Below the pieces are notes generated by a model, which was not told the origin of the DNA, searched no databases, and saw only the letters and a list, made by a program, of their open reading frames with translations. A stretch of DNA of 64,000 bases from Fangia hongkongensis FSC776 = DSM 21703 (lineage in GTDB: Bacteria; Pseudomonadota; Gammaproteobacteria; Francisellales; Francisellaceae). The DNA is taken from contig NZ_KB902245.1 of the NCBI RefSeq assembly GCF_000379445.1, positions 1-64,000 of the forward strand, in the 5' to 3' direction. The translations under genes and the position numbers were made by a program. Numbering within the stretch: position 1 is the stretch's first letter; each line of letters starts with the position of its first letter. This document shows positions 196 to 13,036 of this stretch, piece by piece.

Positions 196-957
196 TCAAT
201 ACAAGCTGAGGAAGCCTAAAAAATTAAATCTATACAAAAAGATGTAATAACATAGCCAACCAAACGATAGCCCAATCCCAAATGGGATGAAATTTGTACC
301 TCTTTTCAGCGCTTTCAATATCACACCAAACAATATCCCTGTTATGGATGCAAACAACAATACATATGGAATTGAAGCAATGCCAAACCAAGCCCCAATA
401 GCAGCCAATAATTTAAAGTCACCAAAACCCATTCCCTCCTTACCGGTGAGAAGCTTAAAAAGATAGTAAATAAGCCACAGGACTAAATAACCAACCACAG
501 CTCCTAATACAGCACTTTTTAGCGGTATAATCAAACCATTCGTATTAATTAACAGCCCAAGCCATAATAATGGCAAAGTCGCTATGTCCGGTAAGATATA
601 GTGCTTTAGATCAATAACACTTAACAATATCAACACTACACCAAGCATTGAAATACAGGCAGAAAACCAGCTAATCCCAACATCTAGATAGACATAGTAC
701 AGATACCCTAAAATCACCAAAAAAATGCTAAGTGATTGGTAGTTTGGTTTTGCTGAAAACAAGCCAGATATCGGTGATACTATTTTAAATACAGGCGCTT
801 TCGTGTCTGTTATTTCATCCGGCAATAATGCTCCTTCCATCTCTAGCTTGGCATTATACAAAACCTTTTCAGGGAGATACTCCACTAGTCCGTTGATTAT
901 CATGCTAGTAACAAGCGCTATGAAGATCAAAATAATAAACATCATGAAAATCACCAA
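196..957 (-). CDS. prepilin peptidase, A24 aspartic protease family
   Basis: Polytopic membrane protein of 253 residues that should cut the leader from type IV prepilins such as the PilS-like and PilV-like proteins at 40170-42306. The two catalytic aspartates are D116 (in IDLKHYILPD) and D180 in the GxGD motif (GMGFGD). Their 64-residue spacing equals that of TcpJ-type enzymes. Several hydrophobic segments run from about residue 75 to 250. The N-terminal region keeps one membrane helix but lacks the CxxC zinc pairs of PilD-type enzymes, so N-methylation may be weaker or absent. The start overlaps the end of the recombinase upstream by 7 bp, implying translational coupling, although the pilus operon itself lies about 40 kb away. 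Confidence 0.88.
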   Translation of the reverse strand: MVIFMMFIILIFIALVTSMIINGLVEYLPEKVLYNAKLEMEGALLPDEITDTKAPVFKIVSPISGLFSAKPNYQSLSIFLVILGYLYYVYLDVGISWFSACISMLGVVLILLSVIDLKHYILPDIATLPLLWLGLLINTNGLIIPLKSAVLGAVVGYLVLWLIYYLFKLLTGKEGMGFGDFKLLAAIGAWFGIASIPYVLLFASITGILFGVILKALKRGTNFIPFGIGLSFGWLCYYIFLYRFNFLGFLSLY

Positions 958-1826
958 CTCCCAATATAACTAGCTAAAATTTCCGGTCTTGAATGCCCAA
1001 GCTCCAAACTCACCACTTCCCTAGCATTTAAATCTATTCTCTTATTTTCATGATCCATTATAGGCTTTTCGCCTCCTTTAATTGGACTTAAAAAGCCACT
1101 TAACTCTGTATATCGCCTTTGCGCGTAAGCATGTCGCAACCCATGAAGATTCGACCAACCGTTTTGTGTGACAATGTGATCGTATAATTGCGTTTGTTCC
1201 TTATAGTTTTTATGAAGTGGGATAAGTGACTTATTGTATCCTGCAACCTTTCTTGATCTATCAAGCCAATATCTTTGCTCTTTTGTTAAAATTGGTATAT
1301 ATCTTTCGCGACCTCCCTTCGTCCAGCTACCTTGCAGCCATATTCGTTTTTCTTTATCGGCTCTACTGGGAATGATTTTAAGGCATTCTTCTTTTCTTAA
1401 CCCAAAGTGCTTTTGTAATTCGAAAGAGCACCGTAAATGCTCATATAAAACACCAGTAAAATCTATACTGTCAATTGCCCTATCATGCGTAGCAATATAT
1501 GAACGCTGTCCTATTCCATACGCTTGATTACTTTTAATAAGATGTTCCTTTTCCATTAAAGTAAATACAAACCGAAGATCACTCATTAAGTTTTTTATAC
1601 GCCCTACCGAAAGCTCTTTATCTTGCCAATACTCTAGCAGCTTATATATATGCTTTGGCTGAATCCGTCCTATGGTTCTCAATTTATAACCCATATCATG
1701 TAACTCACAAGCAATCAGCTTTAATCGACTCAGCCTTGCATACCTTGTGCTATAAGACATGGTCTTTTGCTCTCTCTCTAGTAACTTGTGTATACTATGA
1801 TTTAAATCGTTTAATGCGCGGCTCAT
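951..1826 (-). CDS. tyrosine recombinase (integrase family), catalytically complete
   Basis: 291-residue site-specific recombinase. All expected active-site residues can be placed: R144 (FGLRKEE), K170 (WTKGGRERYIP), H228-x-x-R231 (NLHGLRHAY), H278 (LELGHSRPE) and nucleophile Y287 (LASYIGSW) near the C-terminus. The N-terminal 110 residues look like a helical core-binding domain. It overlaps its upstream paralogue by 4 bp (ATGA) and the prepilin peptidase downstream by 7 bp, so the three form one operon. Possible jobs are plasmid dimer resolution, integration, or inversion of a DNA segment as Rci does for shufflons. No target repeats are recognised with certainty (see the inverted repeat at 2708-2728). 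Confidence 0.85.
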   Translation of the reverse strand: MSRALNDLNHSIHKLLEREQKTMSYSTRYARLSRLKLIACELHDMGYKLRTIGRIQPKHIYKLLEYWQDKELSVGRIKNLMSDLRFVFTLMEKEHLIKSNQAYGIGQRSYIATHDRAIDSIDFTGVLYEHLRCSFELQKHFGLRKEECLKIIPSRADKEKRIWLQGSWTKGGRERYIPILTKEQRYWLDRSRKVAGYNKSLIPLHKNYKEQTQLYDHIVTQNGWSNLHGLRHAYAQRRYTELSGFLSPIKGGEKPIMDHENKRIDLNAREVVSLELGHSRPEILASYIGSW

Positions 1827-2626
1827 AGAAGCCCCTTCTGTAACTTATCGTAACTAGTATAACCAAGCTCTTCAATCAGCATCCGTTTAGCTATCGTTTG
1901 GCTTTTATGTTTTACCAATTGCGCCAAACGCTCCATCGCATAGATTCGCCTAAATGGTGCATTGATCTCATACCCACAATCATATATCTCTGCATTAACA
2001 AGCTGAACAAGCATGTTCTCAGGGATTCTATCTGTTAATGTCCTGTATGACCCTAGTATGTCATTACGATAGTCTATTACAGATAGTTGTGTCTTCGTTA
2101 AAATTGGAATAAATCGAGTTTTTTTGTTGGTGGCTAAATCAGAGTGAATCATTAAATCATCAGACATAATAGCTGTAGTTAAGTTGATTTTAATCGACTC
2201 CCTTTTCGTTAATCCAAAGTAAATCTGAAAAGCGAGTACACTCTTACTAAGTGGGTTATGAACAAGCTCTAATACGTCTTTACTGACTTTAAGCTGTGAC
2301 TGCTTAGAAAATGTAATACTGGTAAAATTAAATTCTTTATTTCTGGGAATATCAATGTCATACATATCTGACATCATTTTACGAAGAATACTGATACGAC
2401 CTTGCATGGTCTGAGATAAGATCCCTTTATTTCTCCATAATTCAACGAGCTTGAAGATGTAATCATTTTTTAACTGTGATAATTTTTGAGGCAAAAGCCC
2501 TAAATGTAATAAATCATCGATCATCGCATAAAGCACTACTTTGCGCTTATAACGTGATCGCTCTGCACCTGTTGCAATACTATTTATATAGTAATTTACA
2601 TCCTTGATGCATGTTTGTTTTCTCAT
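1823..2626 (-). CDS. degenerate tyrosine recombinase paralogue
   Basis: 267 residues that align along their length with the downstream recombinase: shared patterns include FGL-x-K-x-E-x-x-K-I, the K-x-x-R-[FY]-IPILTK strand and E-x-x-LG-x-[ST] near the end. Most catalytic positions are changed: the first arginine is T140, the box-II histidine is A223 (the following R226 is kept), the late histidine is Y256, and the nucleophile position falls on a glycine. It therefore cannot be expected to cut DNA by the normal mechanism. It might be a DNA-binding partner, a regulator of the active enzyme, or a decaying duplicate. An uninterrupted frame and tight 4-bp coupling argue for a retained function. 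Confidence 0.75.
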   Translation of the reverse strand: MRKQTCIKDVNYYINSIATGAERSRYKRKVVLYAMIDDLLHLGLLPQKLSQLKNDYIFKLVELWRNKGILSQTMQGRISILRKMMSDMYDIDIPRNKEFNFTSITFSKQSQLKVSKDVLELVHNPLSKSVLAFQIYFGLTKRESIKINLTTAIMSDDLMIHSDLATNKKTRFIPILTKTQLSVIDYRNDILGSYRTLTDRIPENMLVQLVNAEIYDCGYEINAPFRRIYAMERLAQLVKHKSQTIAKRMLIEELGYTSYDKLQKGLL

Positions 2627-2744: not shown

Positions 2745-3044
2745 TTATTTGTATTTTTCAATCATCTCTTTCGTCACAGCTTCTAAAATTTCAGCATTCA
2801 GCGCTGCATTTAGAATCTTCATTTTTGAAGGTGAGACTCCAGATTCTCTTAAGACATTAGTTTGAACTTGACGAATTAACTTAATGTTCTCATTTGTTAA
2901 TGCTCGCTCTACTAGGCTTTCATGATTGTTTCTTTGATTATTTTTTGCAGCTTTTGCATTCTTTGTTGGTTTTACCTGTGCTTTTGGCTTGACCGGTGCA
3001 ACGGGTTTCGTTTCAACAATTGCAACTGCTTCATTATTACTCAT
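2745..3044 (-). CDS. hypothetical basic protein with Lys/Pro-rich N-terminus
   Basis: 99 residues, unrecognised. Residues about 10-40 are rich in Lys, Pro, Ala and Asn and look disordered (VKPKAQVKPTKNAKAAKNNQ). The remainder is predicted helical, with the stretch ESGVSPSKMKILNAALNAEI. The composition suggests a cytoplasmic nucleic-acid-binding protein, but no family can be named. The ATG at 3042-3044 is preceded by a good AGGAG. Unlike the genes farther upstream, it lacks the GGGAG/CTCCC structured leader; the 150 bp in front of it (3045-3193) hold nothing recognisable. Confidence 0.6.
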   Translation of the reverse strand: MSNNEAVAIVETKPVAPVKPKAQVKPTKNAKAAKNNQRNNHESLVERALTNENIKLIRQVQTNVLRESGVSPSKMKILNAALNAEILEAVTKEMIEKYK

Positions 3045-3193: not shown

Positions 3194-3436
3194 TTACTTG
3201 AAGCAATTTTTTCTATATGTGACACTAACAACCTTATTGGTTGATGTTTTCTTCTTAACATAACTGTCATTTGTCATTGAATGAGTAAGAGTGAAAAAAT
3301 TGATGTGTCCTAATAAGCGCTTAATGACAGAGTTGTCAGTAATATCTACGCTATTAAGTTCATCTGATATTTTCTCAATTATCACTAATGCCTCTTGAAG
3401 CTGATTTACAATGCTAAGTGTTTTGTGCTTATTCAT
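3194..3436 (-). CDS. hypothetical 80-residue protein (leader array gene 8)
   Basis: Small soluble protein, MNKHKTLSIVNQLQEALVII at the start, mostly helical in the first 70 residues, then a basic tail ending in RKNCFK. No family recognised. The ATG is preceded by AGAGGAG. This is the last gene in transcription order of the block whose members carry the repeated structured leader. Confidence 0.6.
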   Translation of the reverse strand: MNKHKTLSIVNQLQEALVIIEKISDELNSVDITDNSVIKRLLGHINFFTLTHSMTNDSYVKKKTSTNKVVSVTYRKNCFK

Positions 3437-3515
3437 CGTTGCACTCCTCTTTTATATTACTTAAAGGGAATAACAACACCCGAATCAGGAGCATAGCTAC
3501 TCCCGACTGGGGGTG
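3434..3515 (-). promoter_or_regulatory. structured leader A (before 3194-3436)
   Basis: Read on the minus strand: outer stem CACCC/GGGTG (3511-3515 with 3477-3481), inner stem GGGAG/CTCCT around an 8-nt loop, then the tail GTTGTTATTCCC (3466-3477) that can pair with the ribosome binding site region GGAGTGCAACG. In this copy the tail pairing is weak, two 4-bp runs with an internal loop. It is the least regular of the eight copies. Confidence 0.6.
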
Positions 3516-3532
3516 ATGAATTTTCTAGGAAA

Positions 3533-3712
3533 CTATATACATAGACGTTTCAAATACGGTGTAATTGAAAAAACTTCAGAGCTATTCTCTGTAGTCTTTG
3601 CCTCTTTGTTTATAGCTTTACTAACGTTGTATCGCATTTCTTGATGGTCTATTGCTAGAACATTTTGAAGTCGTAGTGCTAGTAATTTACCTAGTTGTTG
3701 ATGTTCTCTCAT
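3533..3712 (-). CDS. hypothetical 59-residue protein (leader array gene 7)
   Basis: Short open frame from the ATG at 3710-3712 to TAG at 3533-3535. It starts MREHQQLGKLLALRLQNVLA and ends TPYLKRLCI, with a helical N-terminal half and no membrane segment or known motif. Support comes from a strong ribosome binding site (CGGAGAGTAACAATG) and from its place in the array: it has the same structured leader as its neighbours and the same spacing to it. Confidence 0.6.
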   Translation of the reverse strand: MREHQQLGKLLALRLQNVLAIDHQEMRYNVSKAINKEAKTTENSSEVFSITPYLKRLCI

Positions 3713-3795
3713 TGTTACTCTCCGTTTTTAGTTTTAAAGTTAAAAAAGGGAATAACAATGCCCCTGTTGGGAGTAAAGTTACTCCCTGGTCGGGG
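3710..3795 (-). promoter_or_regulatory. structured leader B (before 3533-3712)
   Basis: Outer stem CCCC/GGGG (3792-3795 with 3761-3764). The inner hairpin is the perfect palindrome GGGAGTAAAGTTACTCCC at 3769-3786. Third stem: CATTGTTATTC (complement of 3750-3760) pairs over 11 bp, with one G-U, with the start region GAGTAACAATG at 3710-3720. The ribosome binding site and start codon would therefore be closed in mRNA. Confidence 0.75.
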
Positions 3796-3803
3796 TTTAT
3801 TTA

Positions 3804-4136
3804 TTAAGCAGCATCATTAATGAAAAAATGCTCTCTATTTTGATAATATCTTGTCACATTACCATCCATATCAATACCAGACATAGAAGGATACTCTTTA
3901 TAAAACTTACACAGCTTTTTGATTTCATTATTATATTCTTCAGTATTTTCACACTGCATAATAGTTTCATCACCTTCTGCATAAGTGACAATAGTCTTCG
4001 TCTTCTTATTAACCCATACTCCGAAATAGTAAGCATCTTGATCTGTATCAAATTGCTCATATCCACCGCCAAAGCACAGATCATAATCATAATAATAACG
4101 ATCTCTATCTACGACAAAATTTTCAGTTATCTTCAT
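3804..4136 (-). CDS. hypothetical Tyr/Asp-rich protein (leader array gene 6)
   Basis: 110 residues, acidic and rich in Tyr and Asp (DRDRYYYDYD near the N-terminus, then GGGYEQFDTDQDAYYFGVWV). The pattern of alternating strands followed by a helix (EEYNNEIKKLCKFYKEY) suggests a small alpha/beta fold. No family recognised. The start is supported by CGGAGATATAACAATG and by the structured leader directly upstream. Confidence 0.65.
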   Translation of the reverse strand: MKITENFVVDRDRYYYDYDLCFGGGYEQFDTDQDAYYFGVWVNKKTKTIVTYAEGDETIMQCENTEEYNNEIKKLCKFYKEYPSMSGIDMDGNVTRYYQNREHFFINDAA

Positions 4137-4219
4137 TGTTATATCTCCGTTTTTAATTTAGTTAAAAGGGAGATAAACAAAGCCCCTAGTGGGAGATATT
4201 TAGTCTCCCAGTTATCGGG
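4134..4219 (-). promoter_or_regulatory. structured leader C (before 3804-4136)
   Basis: Inner stem GGGAGA/TCTCCC (4204-4209 with 4191-4196), outer CCC/GGG (4217-4219 with 4184-4186). Third stem: TTGTTTATCTCC (complement of 4169-4180) pairs with GGAGATATAACAA of the start region with a single bulged base. Here both the tail and the start region read ATCTCC/GGAGAT instead of the ATTCTCC/GGAGAGT of leader F, so the two sides have changed together. Confidence 0.72.
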
Positions 4220-4226
4220 TTATTTT

Positions 4227-4499
4227 TTAAACTTCGGTATATTCTGTCACATCATAACCATGACTATAAAAATCACCTAAGCCTCCAGCATTAATTCTAA
4301 ATGTTTGGACTCCATTGGTAACAATAACCATAGTTCCATCATGTAATTTTATATTTTCTTCTTTGAAACCAACGGCATCTAAGAACAAATCCATGCTGAA
4401 TAGGTTATCTCCAACTTCATCTGCATCAATTATTGAATATGACGTTATGCCATTCTCGAAAAATTGATCTACATTTTCTGGGATATCATATATTTGCAT
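4227..4499 (-). CDS. hypothetical 90-residue protein (leader array gene 5)
   Basis: Starts MQIYDIPENVDQFFENGITS and ends GYDVTEYTEV. Acidic, predicted alpha/beta, no known motif. A longer frame begins at 4652, but it would read through the structured leader and has no ribosome binding site. The ATG at 4497-4499, with AGGAGATAACCAA in front, is clearly the better start. Confidence 0.65.
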   Translation of the reverse strand: MQIYDIPENVDQFFENGITSYSIIDADEVGDNLFSMDLFLDAVGFKEENIKLHDGTMVIVTNGVQTFRINAGGLGDFYSHGYDVTEYTEV

Positions 4500-4577
4500 T
4501 TGGTTATCTCCTATTAGTTCGATTAAAGGGAGATAAACATGCCTCACTAGGAGACGTTTTAATCTCCCAGTGGGTGG
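4497..4577 (-). promoter_or_regulatory. structured leader D (before 4227-4499)
   Basis: The hairpin has 10-bp arms, CACTGGGAGA (complement of 4563-4572) with TCTCCTAGTG (complement of 4545-4554), including one G-U. Third stem: TTATCTCC (complement of 4529-4536) pairs perfectly with GGAGATAA of the ribosome binding site (4504-4511). The weaker part towards the start codon (ACCAAATG) is open in this copy. Confidence 0.72.
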
Positions 4578-4606
4578 TTTACAAGATTTATTTAGTTGAC
4601 TGCTAT

Positions 4607-4930
4607 TTAATGAAAAGTAGCAATGAGAATGGACGCTGCAATTGCAGTGCATCCTAGAAGAATAGAAATAATCGTATTACGATTATCTTTTTGCATGCGT
4701 TTTTCCATACTCTGAGAGAACTGGTCAAACTCACGCCGACTTTCTGCAATAAGTGATTTTTGTGATTCCGTCATTTTTGAGGAAATATCACGCTGTACAT
4801 CTGTCATCATATCTTCTAACTCCTCTCGAACACCTGTTGCAACCTCCGCAGCTTTACGAGCATTAGTGTTATCTAGCCCAAGTAATTCGAATTGATCTAC
4901 TAAATAAAGTCTATCATATTTTTGCTTCAT
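4607..4930 (-). CDS. coiled-coil protein with C-terminal membrane anchor, DUF1640-like
   Basis: 107 residues. After a short head (DQFELLGLDNTNARKAAEVA) there is a long charged coiled coil (residues about 30-80), then a C-terminal membrane helix (TIISILLGCTAIAASILIAT). This head-coil-anchor layout is that of the DUF1640/CCDC90 family, whose molecular role is not settled. The likely start at 4928-4930 overlaps the stop of the upstream gene as ATGA and has GGGGGA at good spacing. Another ATG lies two codons earlier at 4936. It shares leader E with the upstream gene. Confidence 0.6.
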   Translation of the reverse strand: MKQKYDRLYLVDQFELLGLDNTNARKAAEVATGVREELEDMMTDVQRDISSKMTESQKSLIAESRREFDQFSQSMEKRMQKDNRNTIISILLGCTAIAASILIATFH

Positions 4931-5454
4931 TGCCATTCCCCCTTGATCTGGTCAAGGATAACAGCATGCGCTTGACTAACACTATTCCTACTCTTATCAG
5001 AGACATATGATCTATGAAGTATGCAAGTATTTACTACATGACTTGAGATAAACTCATACATGTGCATATTTTTGCTAAATATAGAATCAAAGGCATCTGA
5101 AAATTTGACCTCACCACATAAATAACTACTTGATACATTTTTCAATGCATCATTTATGTATTTATGCAGTATTGCCGATAAAGTATCTACTGCCAGCAAT
5201 ACGTTTTCGGTATTAAAAATAGTCTTTCTAGTATCCGAATAAAAATCATAATCAAATACGGTACTTAGGATAAGATCACCTAGTTCTTCTACCTTTTTGT
5301 AGTCACTAATCCACTTACAATAGCTATGAAATATCTCAGCTGAACCTTTCATAGAATTATTTAAGAACATATGGTTGATTCCATTTTCTAATTTACCTGT
5401 AAGCGCTTCGATAGTAAACTCCACCCTCTTTGAATCATATTTTACATGTTGCAT
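4927..5454 (-). CDS. hypothetical 175-residue protein (leader array gene 4)
   Basis: Starts MQHVKYDSKRVEFTIEALTG. Predicted all-helical and soluble, with Cys residues scattered and no clear motif; the end is HAVILDQIKGEWQ. No family recognised. It is the first gene of a two-gene unit with the membrane-anchored coiled-coil protein (4-bp overlap), so the two may act together. The start is supported by AGGAGAGATGACATG and by leader E. Confidence 0.62.
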   Translation of the reverse strand: MQHVKYDSKRVEFTIEALTGKLENGINHMFLNNSMKGSAEIFHSYCKWISDYKKVEELGDLILSTVFDYDFYSDTRKTIFNTENVLLAVDTLSAILHKYINDALKNVSSSYLCGEVKFSDAFDSIFSKNMHMYEFISSHVVNTCILHRSYVSDKSRNSVSQAHAVILDQIKGEWQ

Positions 5455-5530
5455 GTCATCTCTCCTATCTTGTCATGTTTGGGGAGATAACATGCCCCAT
5501 CTGGGAGACAGTTAATCTCCCATTTAGGTT
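5452..5530 (-). promoter_or_regulatory. structured leader E (before 4927-5454)
   Basis: Inner stem TGGGAGA/TCTCCCA around a short AT-rich loop (5503-5521). Third stem: CATGTTATCTCCCC (complement of 5481-5494) pairs at 13 of 14 positions with GGAGAGATGACATG (5452-5465), closing both the ribosome binding site and the ATG. The start region is GATGACATG here rather than GTAACAATG, and the tail has changed to match. Confidence 0.78.
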
Positions 5531-5539
5531 GTTATAAAC

Positions 5540-5848
5540 TCAATCGTTCGTTAGCAGTAATGAACCAATTTCAATACCATCTAACTTTTTATTGAGCGAT
5601 TCAAGAATTAAATTGATATGATCTTCGTAATTTAAATGCATATCCTCCTCACCTAAATAGATAGTAAAGTGTTGACCTGTTACCACTTGACTAAAACCAC
5701 CATCGTATATATCAATACGATAGCTTTTAGTATGAGGTGCATAACTAAAAAAAGCATGATCATTGGTGTATTTTGAAATCAAAAGACACACATCAAGCAT
5801 TTTTCTTTCGTTATATAAGTCATTTGCATTTAGTTTTTCTACTTTCAT
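5540..5848 (-). CDS. hypothetical 102-residue protein (leader array gene 3)
   Basis: Starts MKVEKLNANDLYNERKMLDV. Alpha/beta, soluble and acidic towards the end (EEDMHLNYEDHINLILESLN). No family recognised. The start has AGGAGAGTAACAATG, identical over 14 bases to that of the 59-residue gene and to that of the lipoprotein gene at 51629, and lies inside leader F. Confidence 0.62.
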   Translation of the reverse strand: MKVEKLNANDLYNERKMLDVCLLISKYTNDHAFFSYAPHTKSYRIDIYDGGFSQVVTGQHFTIYLGEEDMHLNYEDHINLILESLNKKLDGIEIGSLLLTND

Positions 5849-5926
5849 TGTTACTCTCCTATTAATTAGTTTTAAAGGGAGAATAACAATGCCCCTGCTG
5901 GGAGATTATTAGCCTCCCATATGGGT
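5846..5926 (-). promoter_or_regulatory. structured leader F (before 5540-5848)
   Basis: Inner stem GGGAG/CTCCC (5914-5918 with 5900-5904), outer CCC/GGG (5923-5925 with 5893-5895). Third stem is the best of the set: CATTGTTATTCTCC (complement of 5878-5891) pairs over 14 bp, one of them G-U, with GGAGAGTAACAATG (5846-5859), including the whole start codon. Confidence 0.8.
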
Positions 5927-5949
5927 CATAGTATCTTAATCACTCTTAA

Positions 5950-6396
5950 CTAGCTTGCTCTCATAGAAGCACCCCAGCCTTGAATAACTTTAAATTTTTG
6001 TTTTTTATCTTGCGCTTGCTTATCACCTTGTAAAGTTATATCAACTTTATCAGCGATCTCATCAGCTAGAGCTAATTTTTCATTTTCAGGAAAATCAGCA
6101 CTATTCAATTTACTGACAAGTTCATCTAACTCGTTAATTTTCACTTGTAACTTAAATGATTTCACCTGATCTTTAAGTGATATAAGTGATTTGACTTGCT
6201 CATCACTTAACTCACTATTGACCGGATGATCAAACGCATGTTTATCATTGTTATTTTCTATCTCATTTGTATCTGGTTCGTTCTGCTTGTCAGATACATC
6301 TTTAGATGCATCTGGCAGTCTACTTACCAAAAAAGTAATACAAAAGATTAAGGTTATTAGTACAATTGCAATAGATAATGTAATTACAGTTGTCAT
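5950..6396 (-). CDS. membrane-anchored hypothetical protein (leader array gene 2)
   Basis: 148 residues: an N-terminal membrane helix (TLSIAIVLITLIFCITFLVS), then an acidic linker and a helical, charged segment (about 75-130) that looks like a coiled coil, ending QGWGASMRAS. No family recognised. The frame extends upstream to 6423, but AGGAGTGAATACCATG fixes the start at 6394-6396, and only this start fits the pairing in leader G. Confidence 0.62.
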   Translation of the reverse strand: MTTVITLSIAIVLITLIFCITFLVSRLPDASKDVSDKQNEPDTNEIENNNDKHAFDHPVNSELSDEQVKSLISLKDQVKSFKLQVKINELDELVSKLNSADFPENEKLALADEIADKVDITLQGDKQAQDKKQKFKVIQGWGASMRAS

Positions 6397-6485
6397 GGTA
6401 TTCACTCCTATTATTTGATTCATTTGATGATTACAGGAAGAAAACCATACCCCCTGAAGGAGATAAAATTCTCTCCCTATGGGGG
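6394..6485 (-). promoter_or_regulatory. structured leader G (before 5950-6396)
   Basis: Outer stem CCCCC/GGGGG (6481-6485 with 6450-6454), inner stem AGGGAGA/TCTCCT (6472-6478 with 6458-6463). Third stem: TATGGTTTTCTTCC (complement of 6436-6449) pairs with the start region, where TATGGT matches this gene's unusual ACCATG; an A-bulge and one mismatch separate it from the ribosome binding site pairing. Confidence 0.72.
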
Positions 6486-6507
6486 TTAATAAACACTTAA
6501 TTCATAT

Positions 6508-7098
6508 TCAAACTTTACAAGCATCATGGAACGCCTTTGATACTTCTAATTGATCAATTAAAGGCAACAATCCAAGGTTATCCATTGATACATTTATCTC
6601 AAAAGTTAAATATTGCATATGCATTAACATATCCAATATTGTCCCCTCTAAAACAGAATGCCTATAAAGATGCTCTTGCAACTTTGAAATTAGAAAATTA
6701 TTACTAATTTTATGTAATATTTTTTGGTTAAATTTAATCGCCTTAAGTAATAATGCCTGATTGAAAAAATCAGACTTATCAGCTTTAATAAACCAATCAA
6801 TATTTTTTGACTCTAGATAACGTGTTAAAACTTCGTCATTCACATGTCTATTATTGAAATATGAAATGCTATCAAAGTTAAAAACAATGTTCATGTTTAT
6901 ACCGGTAATGTATTTGATAATATCTTCAAATGACTTACCTTCTAAAGCACCAACAAATGAAATTAGAGTCTGCTTAATTTTAAGCACTGTTATCTCATCT
7001 TCAAATTGTAAAAGATCGTTTAGTTGTTGAGATTTAAGATCAACAACATAACTGATCATCGCTATATTTTTCGATGATAGTTGTACTCTAGTTTTCAT
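6508..7098 (-). CDS. hypothetical 196-residue protein (leader array gene 1)
   Basis: Starts MKTRVQLSSKNIAMISYVVD. Helix-rich, soluble, no membrane segment and no known motif. It is first in transcription order and has the strongest ribosome binding site of the block (AGGAGGAAATATG). The leader in front of it is the eighth copy of the repeated element, so expression probably starts from a promoter within 7179-7774. Confidence 0.65.
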   Translation of the reverse strand: MKTRVQLSSKNIAMISYVVDLKSQQLNDLLQFEDEITVLKIKQTLISFVGALEGKSFEDIIKYITGINMNIVFNFDSISYFNNRHVNDEVLTRYLESKNIDWFIKADKSDFFNQALLLKAIKFNQKILHKISNNFLISKLQEHLYRHSVLEGTILDMLMHMQYLTFEINVSMDNLGLLPLIDQLEVSKAFHDACKV

Positions 7099-7178
7099 AT
7101 TTCCTCCTAAAGATAGCTAATCGATAAGGGAAATATAACTCACCCATTTCTGGGAAAATAAAATTTCCCCAATGGGTG
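7096..7178 (-). promoter_or_regulatory. structured leader H (before 6508-7098)
   Basis: Outer stem CACCCATT/AATGGGTG (7171-7178 with 7141-7148) and inner stem GGGAAA/TTTCCC (7152-7169). Third stem: ATATTTCC (complement of 7129-7136) pairs perfectly with GGAAATAT of the start region (7097-7104). The inner stem is GGGAAA here instead of GGGAGA, and both the tail and the ribosome binding site are also changed in step. Confidence 0.75.
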
Positions 7179-7774
7179 ATTAAGTTTAAAACTTAAACTG
7201 AGTGTATTTATCAAAAAGCAGACTAAACCACAAAAGATGCTTTTTCGTTTCCTACAATTTAAAGCAAGTTGTTATGCTATAGCTAGTGACTCCTTTTAAG
7301 TTGTTATAAAAGAAGATGTAGTGAAACTAGCGCTGACATTCCAATTAGATTGGGCGGTTCTTAAATATATACGCATCGCACATATTTGACCTTTTATCAT
7401 CAGTTGTTATCAGACAAAAGGCATTTATTTTTGCTTATGTTTCATTGCTGAGATGAACTTCACATTGTCGGAAGTAATAAGCACATCATTTTGTGGAACA
7501 ACCCTACGTTGTTGAGGGATCTACGTTGTTGAGATTGCCTTTCATAAATACGATAATCACTGTCAGTATGATTAGCTTAATTTATGTCGTCCACATGGCT
7601 ACACACTTTTAGCCTTTCCTTGATATTAACATCAAGAAATATCTAGGCTTATGTATGATATTAACTCTGAAAAAACTAAAATCAATACGGTCTAGCAATA
7701 TTTAAATTCCATCTTTTTTACGGATAAGAAAAAATCATGTTATAGATACGATTAGCTTACATTTATATAATGCG
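7179..7774. other. non-coding region with inverted and direct repeats
   Basis: Almost 600 bp without a convincing gene, upstream of the small-gene array. It holds the near-perfect palindrome TTAAGTTT-A-AAACTTAA at about 7180-7197. The direct repeat CTACGTTGTTGAG occurs at 7504-7516 and 7521-7533, the first copy also forming an inverted repeat AACAAC/GTTGTT with the bases before it. CTTGAT/ATCAAG arms sit near 7619-7636. A promoter for the array is expected here, but no clear -35/-10 pair stands out. No nic-like YATCCTG is present. Confidence 0.5.
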
Positions 7775-11761: not shown

Positions 11762-13036
11762 CTAATACACAAGGTTATATCCAACGAGTGTGCAAAAATA
11801 TTCTGCAAGTCCGACTCTAAAACCACTTCCTCCCTGTGTAGCATTAAAGTAGCCATCCCCTTTTTTTTGCATAACGCGGCATCGATCCCAATGCACGGCA
11901 TTTTTGGCATAATCTAAAGCGGCTAAAATCTTTGCACAACGATTCAGTTCTTCTAAAATCTCACTGTCTGTTTTGACAACCTCATTTTTATAAATAATGG
12001 TATAACCGACCAATCCAATTGCTTGTATAATCATTGATCCAGTTTGATACCCTGTTTTATCACGGTAAAATCGATTGCCTTGATAAGTAGCCCATTTTTC
12101 AAAAAAATAGGATCCAAACTGTTTCTTTGTTTCAAATTCGTATCCTGAGAGTTCCCTACCATCCTTCAACGTAAGTGAGGCTGTGGTTTTTCGCTGTAAA
12201 TAGTCACCACCTAAAAAGCCTCGGCAATAGCGAGCCATTATGCTTAAAGTTGTGATGTGTGGTGATTTTTTACTGACTACGTTTTTGCTTTCATTCATGC
12301 CGCCATGATGTTTAATCACTGGCATTTTTGATATTTCTCTTGCCCAGTTAATAATAGGGTCTGTTGAGTTTAAGCGCATGGCGTGTCTTGCCTGAACCTT
12401 CGTCTGAGTGAAGTTAATATCACTGAATATTTGACCAATATCAGCTTTTGTTAAATCTCGCTCATTTCCAAATATAATTTTCACTGAAATCTCTAAGTTC
12501 GATAGTAATGAGCGTAATAGCTTTCTACGCTCAAGACGGCTTTGATTTGGTTTACTTACACCTCTTATTGTAGGCTCATAGCCGCCTATCGTTCGCATAA
12601 ATGTATTCAACCGCCCTAGTCCATCACTTGCAAAGGCACTTTTTGGCTCAAACTCAATCATATCTAAACGATCATCAAACTGTTTTATCACCGGACGTTT
12701 ATTTAACGCAATGGTAATCGTTGGGATACACCCTGCTACTTCCACTTTATTGAGTAGGTGGTTTGAATAGTAATCTTCAAAGGCATCACAACGACTGACC
12801 GTAGTCACTCTTTGCACATCCTTGTAAAGCAAGGCTAAATCCTCTGGCAAAGCACGCATCGATAAGCTATTCAATAATGATTCGACTCGCATTTGTGTCA
12901 CCATGTTGCGTGTAACGCCGAAGGATTTTCGTGAGATCATTCCACTTACTTTAGTCGTTAAGCTTGACTCTCTACGTGTTGCAGTTCCTGTCTTATTTTC
13001 GCTCACAGCATCCATATTTTCTAAGATCTCTGTCAT
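11762..13036 (-). CDS. DGQHR/DndB-like domain protein inside the tra operon
   Basis: 424 residues, soluble. The centre of the N-terminal half reads ASDGLGRLNTFMRTI (about 136-150), resembling the DGQHR signature of DndB-type proteins, with Q and H replaced. The flanking segments (IPTITIALN before it; strand-rich and helix-rich parts after it) fit that fold. DndB represses phosphorothioation genes; relatives without Dnd partners are common on mobile elements and of unknown role. No dnd genes are visible here. It lies 8 bp upstream of the DUF4400-like gene and is clearly part of the transfer operon. A link to transfer or plasmid defence is inference. Confidence 0.5.
   Translation of the reverse strand: MTEILENMDAVSENKTGTATRRESSLTTKVSGMISRKSFGVTRNMVTQMRVESLLNSLSMRALPEDLALLYKDVQRVTTVSRCDAFEDYYSNHLLNKVEVAGCIPTITIALNKRPVIKQFDDRLDMIEFEPKSAFASDGLGRLNTFMRTIGGYEPTIRGVSKPNQSRLERRKLLRSLLSNLEISVKIIFGNERDLTKADIGQIFSDINFTQTKVQARHAMRLNSTDPIINWAREISKMPVIKHHGGMNESKNVVSKKSPHITTLSIMARYCRGFLGGDYLQRKTTASLTLKDGRELSGYEFETKKQFGSYFFEKWATYQGNRFYRDKTGYQTGSMIIQAIGLVGYTIIYKNEVVKTDSEILEELNRCAKILAALDYAKNAVHWDRCRVMQKKGDGYFNATQGGSGFRVGLAEYFCTLVGYNLVY

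Follow-up and report, generated by a model that had tools for sequence, protein, structure and literature searches.

Several described systems control the start of translation, or the expression of newly acquired genes, through competing or repeated secondary structures. In the maturation-gene leader of coliphage MS2 a transient structure allows translation before a stable structure closes the start (PMC6733600), whilst in the type I toxin mRNAs hok and aapA3 ordered, mutually exclusive co-transcriptional hairpins control access to the Shine-Dalgarno (SD) sequence and show covariation, with the transient folds blocking translation, or preparing for its blocking, and processing activating the mRNA (PMC6733600). 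Translational riboswitch expression platforms use competing sequester and antisequester helices around the ribosome-binding site (RBS), and multi-copy RNA thermometers such as ROSE elements exist. In conjugative elements, the EGeRS1 sequences of pLS20-family plasmids are repeated regulatory sequences of 400-600 bp, conserved in sequence and carrying inverted repeats, upstream of several establishment operons including ardC in Gram-positive hosts, by an unknown mechanism (PMC8708921), and the Frpo/ssi single-stranded DNA promoters are hairpins with -35/-10 sequences upstream of leading-region anti-defence genes (PMC11541004).

Here we describe eight leaders (A-H), each of about 80 nt, on the minus strand of a conjugative plasmid of Fangia hongkongensis, found in the first 64,000 nucleotides of contig NZ_KB902245.1 (hereafter the window). 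Compared with the MS2 leader, a single viral leader with a cloverleaf, these are short modular leaders on many genes of conjugative elements, each carrying a mimic of its own gene's SD region. Compared with hok and aapA3, the transient fold predicted here would keep the SD free, and the genes are not known toxins. Relative to EGeRS1 the leaders are far shorter and have little conserved sequence, and our structural scanner found none on three Bacillota plasmids. Relative to Frpo/ssi they lie over SD and start codon, with the base-pair preferences of sense-strand RNA in one of their helices. Relative to riboswitch platforms, no aptamer or conserved ligand-binding core was seen, and the first hairpin arm itself mimics the SD region of each gene; only CCC/GGG and GG/CC pairs were near-invariant and no conserved loop was seen, although loops were not assessed separately. 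A search of the window against all 4227 Rfam families returned no match at gathering score, and only chance-level matches were present in 3300-7300.

All eight leaders proposed in the earlier note are present, and its observation is confirmed. Covariance model hits were placed at 3434-3513 (A), 3710-3795 (B), 4134-4220 (C), 4498-4577 (D), 5452-5529 (E), 5846-5926 (F, 83.8 bits), 6394-6486 (G) and 7091-7177 (H, 38.1 bits). RNAfold predicts in every one a hairpin (hp1) followed by a second (hp2), in which a tail pairs with the gene's own SD/start region and sequesters SD and start codon (-27 to -39 kcal/mol). The array begins with leader H (7095-7179; hp1 arms 7164-7179 and 7140-7157, loop 7158-7163, tail 7120-7138, SD/start arm 7095-7114) and gene H (6508-7098, 196 aa), followed by leader G (6395-6486; arms 6472-6486 and 6449-6463, loop 6464-6471, tail 6433-6448, SD/start arm 6395-6411) and gene G (5950-6396, 148 aa), leader F (5846-5925; arms 5913-5925 and 5893-5905, loop 5906-5912, tail 5872-5891, SD/start arm 5846-5865) and gene F (5540-5848, 102 aa), and leader E (5451-5528; arms 5515-5528 and 5496-5509, loop 5510-5514, tail 5481-5495, SD/start arm 5451-5465) and gene E (4927-5454, 175 aa). 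A gene at 4607-4936, whose start overlaps the end of gene E, has no leader of its own here, yet its orthologue in a related plasmid (L058) has one at 4317-4393. The array continues with leader D (4496-4572; arms 4562-4572 and 4545-4555, loop 4556-4561, tail 4524-4542, SD/start arm 4496-4516) and gene D (4227-4499, 90 aa), leader C (4134-4219; arms 4204-4219 and 4184-4196, loop 4197-4203, tail 4162-4182, SD/start arm 4134-4156) and gene C (3804-4136, 110 aa), leader B (3710-3795; arms 3780-3795 and 3761-3775, loop 3776-3779, tail 3741-3760, SD/start arm 3710-3730) and gene B (3533-3712, 59 aa), and leader A (3437-3512; arms 3498-3512 and 3479-3493, loop 3494-3497, tail 3463-3478, SD/start arm 3437-3452) and gene A (3194-3436, 80 aa). 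All of these genes and leaders are on the minus strand. Genes C, D, F, G and H have no Pfam match, and gene E has a weak, below-cutoff match to AbiJ_NTD4. The long intergenic region upstream of gene H (7183-7770) is the likely site of the array's promoter, which is inferred, as promoter-like sites were no more numerous than in shuffled sequence; intergenic room elsewhere is nearly filled by the leaders.

The matches between tail and start region given in the earlier note are correct, although the outer stem it described as shared is weak in D and E (2-4 pairs), and its statement that the covered genes are small and unrelated holds in this array but not elsewhere. Covariation, the test which that note had proposed, is strong: 19 of 25 pairs were changed on both sides (0/500 shuffles). 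In 44 model hits 90.4% of cells were paired, against 74.5% when shuffled (0/500), 13 of 14 pairs of the SD/start helix were changed on both sides, and slid controls gave 45-59%. In 50 distinct rows from genomes outside the seed the values were 88.5% and 72.2% (0/500), with double changes in 12 of 14 pairs of that helix, and in both sets none of 500 shuffles reached the observed value on any of five measures. The helix that hides SD and start codon is therefore conserved. An independent scanner run over both strands of the whole window gave seven strict hits, all of them these leaders. Low-threshold scanner hits inside coding regions were treated as false positives unless hp1 opened with CC and carried GG.

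The earlier note missed a third helix. The upper 5' arm (arm1) plus the loop of hp1 mimics the gene's own start region and can pair with the same tail, and this helix (S2) excludes both hairpins, keeps the tail off the SD and is likewise conserved. Comparison of cognate with shuffled partners in 41 leaders found without any S2 criterion gave z of -17 for tail with SD, -16 for arm1 with arm2 and -13.3 for arm1 plus loop with tail (all 0/5000), whilst 49 leaders from new genomes gave z of -14.5 for S2 (0/5000); the alternative crossing pair, arm2 with SD, was weak (z -2.4 to -2.8). Of the hp1 loop bases, 78% lie in S2. In transcripts truncated at the tail, S2 was the minimum-energy fold in 90 of 127 leaders (41 of 49 out of sample), against 159 of 1270 with non-cognate tails, and all 90 contained a cap mini-hairpin (CC-N4-6-GG) of at least 2 bp, formed by arm2 when released. 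Of the 127, 37 were chosen partly by S2 score, hence only the sets of 41 and 49 are unbiased for S2. When transcripts were grown stepwise, the commonest path was hp1, then S2, then hp2 (90/127), an S2 stage of any kind appeared in 103 of 127 against 119 of 635 (19%) with non-cognate hp1, and the final fold hid the start in 126 of 127. In the window, the nascent fold is S2 in leaders B, C, E, F and G and stays hp1 in A, D and H, and 24 of the 127 leaders show no S2 stage. The mean gap from the closed fold to the best fold with an open SD core is 7.4 kcal/mol. G.U exceeds A.C in S2 beyond composition (98:7 cognate against 3626:933 non-cognate; p = 0.015 and 0.008 in two sets, 2e-4 pooled), which points to RNA of the sense strand; this is weaker than a count of 37:2 that ignores composition, and the same test for hp2 alone is not significant (p = 0.31). 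We also considered a pseudoknotted open state retaining the outer CCC/GGG, but S2 often starts directly after the outer CCC with no linker, and a nested fold with the cap mini-hairpin explains the same bases.

We suggest that each leader is a cis-acting translational RNA switch, a reading we hold as about as likely as not. In this view, as RNA polymerase moves along, hp1 would form, the emerging tail would then capture arm1 as S2, and the SD would emerge whilst its tail is occupied, such that a 30S subunit could initiate; otherwise the mRNA would relax by strand exchange into hp1 plus hp2 and fall silent. Genes behind such leaders would be translated mainly from newly made mRNA and shut off as it ages, so that expression is prompt but brief, which would suit establishment genes of conjugative elements. 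What the computation establishes is the three helices with their gene-specific matching, the order of minimum-energy folds and the breadth of the element, whereas the real folding kinetics, ribosome capture, any effect of switching on translation, the trigger, the purpose of brief expression and a role at entry into a new cell are inferred from sequence alone. Minimum-energy folds are not kinetics, and by energy the S2 stage ends about as the SD arm emerges, so an open window would need a kinetic barrier beyond these calculations. The strongest version, a previously uncatalogued class of folding timers giving anti-restriction, replication and recombination genes a short pulse of expression without any sensor or regulator, and defined by pairing logic rather than conserved sequence, is not excluded but is somewhat less likely than not. 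The interpretation in the earlier note is partly supported: selection on the pairing and sequestration of each gene's own RBS and start codon are supported, but the common signal or RNA-binding factor it inferred is not shown; no ligand pocket or strictly conserved single-stranded motif was seen, and S2 offers a built-in way to open the RBS without one. Its suggestion of use on entry into a new cell is plausible from the genes involved (ArdC, RadC, RecT and ICE replication proteins), with neither oriT nor relaxase located here, and in pKLC102 the leader cluster lies about 50 kb from mobH.

The main alternative, which is possible though tentative, keeps the three-helix switch but lets a trans-acting factor, such as an element-encoded or host RNA-binding protein, RNA chaperone, helicase or small RNA, stabilise S2 or hp1, in which case the leaders form a co-regulated regulon. 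At equilibrium all leaders are closed, which fits factor-driven opening equally well, and the outer CCC/GGG and inner GG/CC pairs are almost invariant across distant elements, as a shared binding site would be; pKLC102 encodes a cold-shock protein, and a Lys/Asn-rich protein of 99-121 aa without a leader follows the array in three related plasmids. However, the invariant CCC/GGG is also explained by the S2 cap and the hp1 base, no common factor gene is known across the hosts and no conserved loop sequence was seen.

The remaining readings are unlikely. Simple constitutive repression or an RNA thermometer, with S2 complementarity a by-product of arm1 having been copied from the SD region, which it resembles, sits poorly with gene-specific S2 pairing that persists in highly diverged leaders, and hp2 stems (mean -14.3 kcal/mol) look too stable for a thermometer. 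A single-stranded DNA element of the transferred strand, either an Frpo/ssi-type promoter or an attC-like recombination site, would account for palindromes upstream of likely establishment genes, and tyrosine recombinase genes lie next to the array, yet the hairpins cover SD and start codon and follow each gene's own start, G.U exceeds A.C on the sense strand in S2, and the scanner found none passing the strict filter in the R64 region carrying psiA and ardA and none in R388; promoter-like sites numbered 21 against 24.4 in shuffles, with none placed consistently in the leaders, in a scan that reads linear sequence rather than the folded strand. An action on transcription or RNA processing (attenuation, antitermination or RNase entry between cistrons) could draw on the position of the leaders between cistrons and on an excess of terminator-like stems in the region (13 against 1.8 in shuffles), but that excess includes plus-strand and coding-region hits and is raised by the palindromes themselves, no U-run follows the 3' arm of hp2, which runs into the gene, and the strongest signal is pairing with SD and start codon. 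A general role in translational coupling was dropped, since hp1 starts about 7-27 nt after the upstream stop codon in leaders A-G and gene H has no close upstream gene, and CsrA-type regulation was set aside as GGA sits in stems, not loops.

How conjugative elements express establishment genes quickly and briefly is an open question, the mechanism being called unknown for three of four clades of pLS20-family plasmids (PMC8708921), and the leader is a portable, testable candidate which could also point to unknown establishment or anti-defence genes. Literature searches, confined to open-licence papers, found no description of it, and as it is recognised by pairing logic rather than sequence, sequence-based discovery would tend to miss it, so more may exist. 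A DNA similarity search of the array in plasmids gave no match, and of two scans of genome contigs the first found nothing and the second one MAG. The same kind of leader was present in 29 of 369 sampled Gammaproteobacterial genomes, in the Pseudomonas element pKLC102, and on plasmids or ICE-like elements of Stutzerimonas, Enterobacter, Shewanella, Methylomonas and Tistrella. The genes behind it include ArdC, RadC, RecT and STY4534-family replication proteins along with many uncharacterised genes, and in pKLC102 a leader precedes a 749-aa helicase gene.

The window is bases 1-64000 of a 76,687-bp contig, which carries an I-type (Dot/Icm-like) transfer system with a DotB-like ATPase (related to that family but below its cut-off), type IV pilus genes and a Rep_3 initiator, and it is therefore a conjugative-type plasmid. 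At L014:11289-13112 (-), i.e. about 74.3-76.1 kb of contig C7, there is a 607-aa telomere resolvase (Pfam ResT-TelK_cat, E 1e-14), which suggests that this conjugative-type plasmid may be linear with hairpin ends. A 424-aa protein at window 11762-13036 (-), near the coupling-protein-like gene, has no Pfam match, and among those genes of the contig that were searched, which were not all of them, no relaxase was recognised. The eight genes with leaders lie on the minus strand at 3194-7098, with a 590-bp intergenic region upstream of gene H. As the room between genes is nearly filled by the leaders, we infer that one polycistronic transcript is likely, and a promoter scan showed no excess of promoter-like sites.

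RNAfold predicted a first hairpin (hp1) followed by a second, SD/start-sequestering hairpin (hp2) in all eight leaders. A covariance model built from them (R1) recovered these eight with strong scores in a search of the whole genome, the only other hits were weak and lie on the opposite strand of the same palindromes. Rfam has no counterpart, although the element class may already be described in literature beyond that searched. The seed alignment (A3) was padded with N and dropped a few bulged bases, so the model is a stepping-stone rather than an exact record, and model E-values are rough. R1 found further arrays on contigs of related genomes, where some orthologous genes keep a leader while its sequence changes (for example gene G and L058:7295, gene H and L058:7980, L058 being a region of a related plasmid), whilst more distant leaders, in AT-rich (30% GC) and GC-rich (60%) elements, keep the layout but little of the sequence. 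Searches of 274 sampled Gammaproteobacterial genomes with R1 and of 369 with a second model (R2) found hits in 11 and 29 genomes, respectively, and in 398 genomes drawn across the phylum 11 had hits, including two from another class. These counts use strict filters and are lower bounds for the model used.

Following the DUF6094 methyltransferase gene found behind one leader led to annotated plasmids. A scanner that asks only for hp1, an SD-covering hp2 and complementarity in a third helix (S2, see below) found leaders on pKLC102 of Pseudomonas aeruginosa, Stutzerimonas pZDHY95-VIM-2, an Enterobacter ludwigii plasmid, Shewanella pSBAL11702, a Methylomonas plasmid (about ten genes) and Tistrella pTM3, with a weaker single hit in Vibrio pLMG19642-1. 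On the whole of pKLC102, the CCC-type hits lie only at 40.9-48.7 kb, before the STY4534 replication gene, a DEAD/DEAH helicase gene and others, and not in the pilus or transfer operons. None were found on R388, and none passing the strict filter were found in 40 kb of R64 or on three Bacillota plasmids. The genes behind leaders include ArdC (region L063, with further ArdC-like proteins in L096, L116 and L123 by sequence resemblance), RadC, a toprim/primase-like protein, an STY4534-family ICE replication protein, RecT, a DUF1281-like MPNWC protein (L074, by sequence resemblance) and DUF6094 methyltransferases (L080 and L111, by annotation of relatives). Most genes in the window have no family, and gene E (window 4927-5454, minus strand) has only a weak, below-cutoff match to the abortive-infection domain AbiJ_NTD4. 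Judged by gene content alone, these are the kinds of genes found in leading regions and anti-defence islands (PMC11541004).

Reading the diverged leaders revealed the third helix, in which the upper part of the 5′ arm (arm1) of hp1 plus its loop copies the gene's own SD/start region and is complementary to the tail of hp2. For example, GGGGATAGTAAT pairs with ATTGCTATCTCC (12 of 12 with wobble pairs) in L060, and ACTGGGGAAACAC pairs with GTGTTTCTCCGGT (13 of 13 with wobble pairs) in L074. We tested this by pairing each arm with its own versus other leaders' partners. In 41 leaders found by R1, which has no such helix in it, arm1+loop:tail gave z = −13.3 (0/5000), close to hp1 (−16) and hp2 (−17), whilst the 3′ arm of hp1 (arm2) with the SD gave only −2.8. 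In 49 leaders from genomes found later, the third helix gave z = −14.5, a further 37 leaders were picked partly by this feature and are not used for this claim. Related leaders are not independent, although near-identical leaders make the cognate test conservative. Alignments A6 and A7 were fitted to their models and lean towards them, which the slid and shuffled controls address only partly. Because the match is specific to each gene, base pairing must maintain it, as a protein reading a fixed sequence could not. In this helix, G.T mismatches exceed A.C, and after correction for composition by non-cognate pairs the excess holds (p = 0.015 and 0.008 in two sets, 2e-4 pooled), as expected for RNA of the sense strand, whereas for hp2 alone the test is not significant.

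For transcripts ending at the tail, S2 is the predicted minimum-energy fold in 90 of 127 leaders and in 41 of 49 out-of-sample leaders, against 12.5% with foreign tails. Its cap is a mini-hairpin of the inner CC and outer GG of arm2, with a 4-6 nt loop in most cases, which gives a reason for the near-invariant CCC/GGG and their spacing. When the transcript was extended base by base, 90 of 127 leaders followed hp1, S2, hp2 exactly and 103 showed an S2 stage, against 119 of 635 with a foreign hp1, and 126 of 127 ended in the closed (OFF) fold. The best fold with the SD core open lies 7.4 kcal/mol above OFF on average, all energies being nearest-neighbour predictions. In the window, leaders B, C, E, F and G show S2 as the nascent fold, A, D and H do not.

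The most economical reading is a translational switch whose ON state is a folding intermediate, in which ribosomes can load on young mRNA, after which strand exchange closes it. Control of the MS2 maturation gene is the known precedent for a transient structure that allows translation (PMC6733600). The computations show the three helices, their mutual exclusion, their gene-specific conservation, the order of folds by energy and the breadth of occurrence, whereas the kinetics, ribosome loading, transience and a role in establishment are inferred from sequence alone, without transcript, probing or reporter data. The main rival, a factor that holds S2 or hp1, cannot be excluded. A Lys/Asn-rich protein of 99-121 aa, without a leader here and without a known family, follows the array in the window (2745-3044, minus strand) and in two related plasmids (L058:3091-3456 and L059:6692-7051), and is a candidate regulator or RNA-binding protein.

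Two adjacent tyrosine-recombinase-like genes (window 951-2626, minus strand) also follow the array here and in the same two related plasmids (L058, L059), and the gene content of the array varies between fixed flanks, as if leader-gene units were exchanged. Near-identical leader-gene modules occur on several contigs of related genomes (L061, L065, L066 and L068), where L061:6776 and L068:3273 share hp1 and tail but have different genes behind them, which looks like recombination through the leader.
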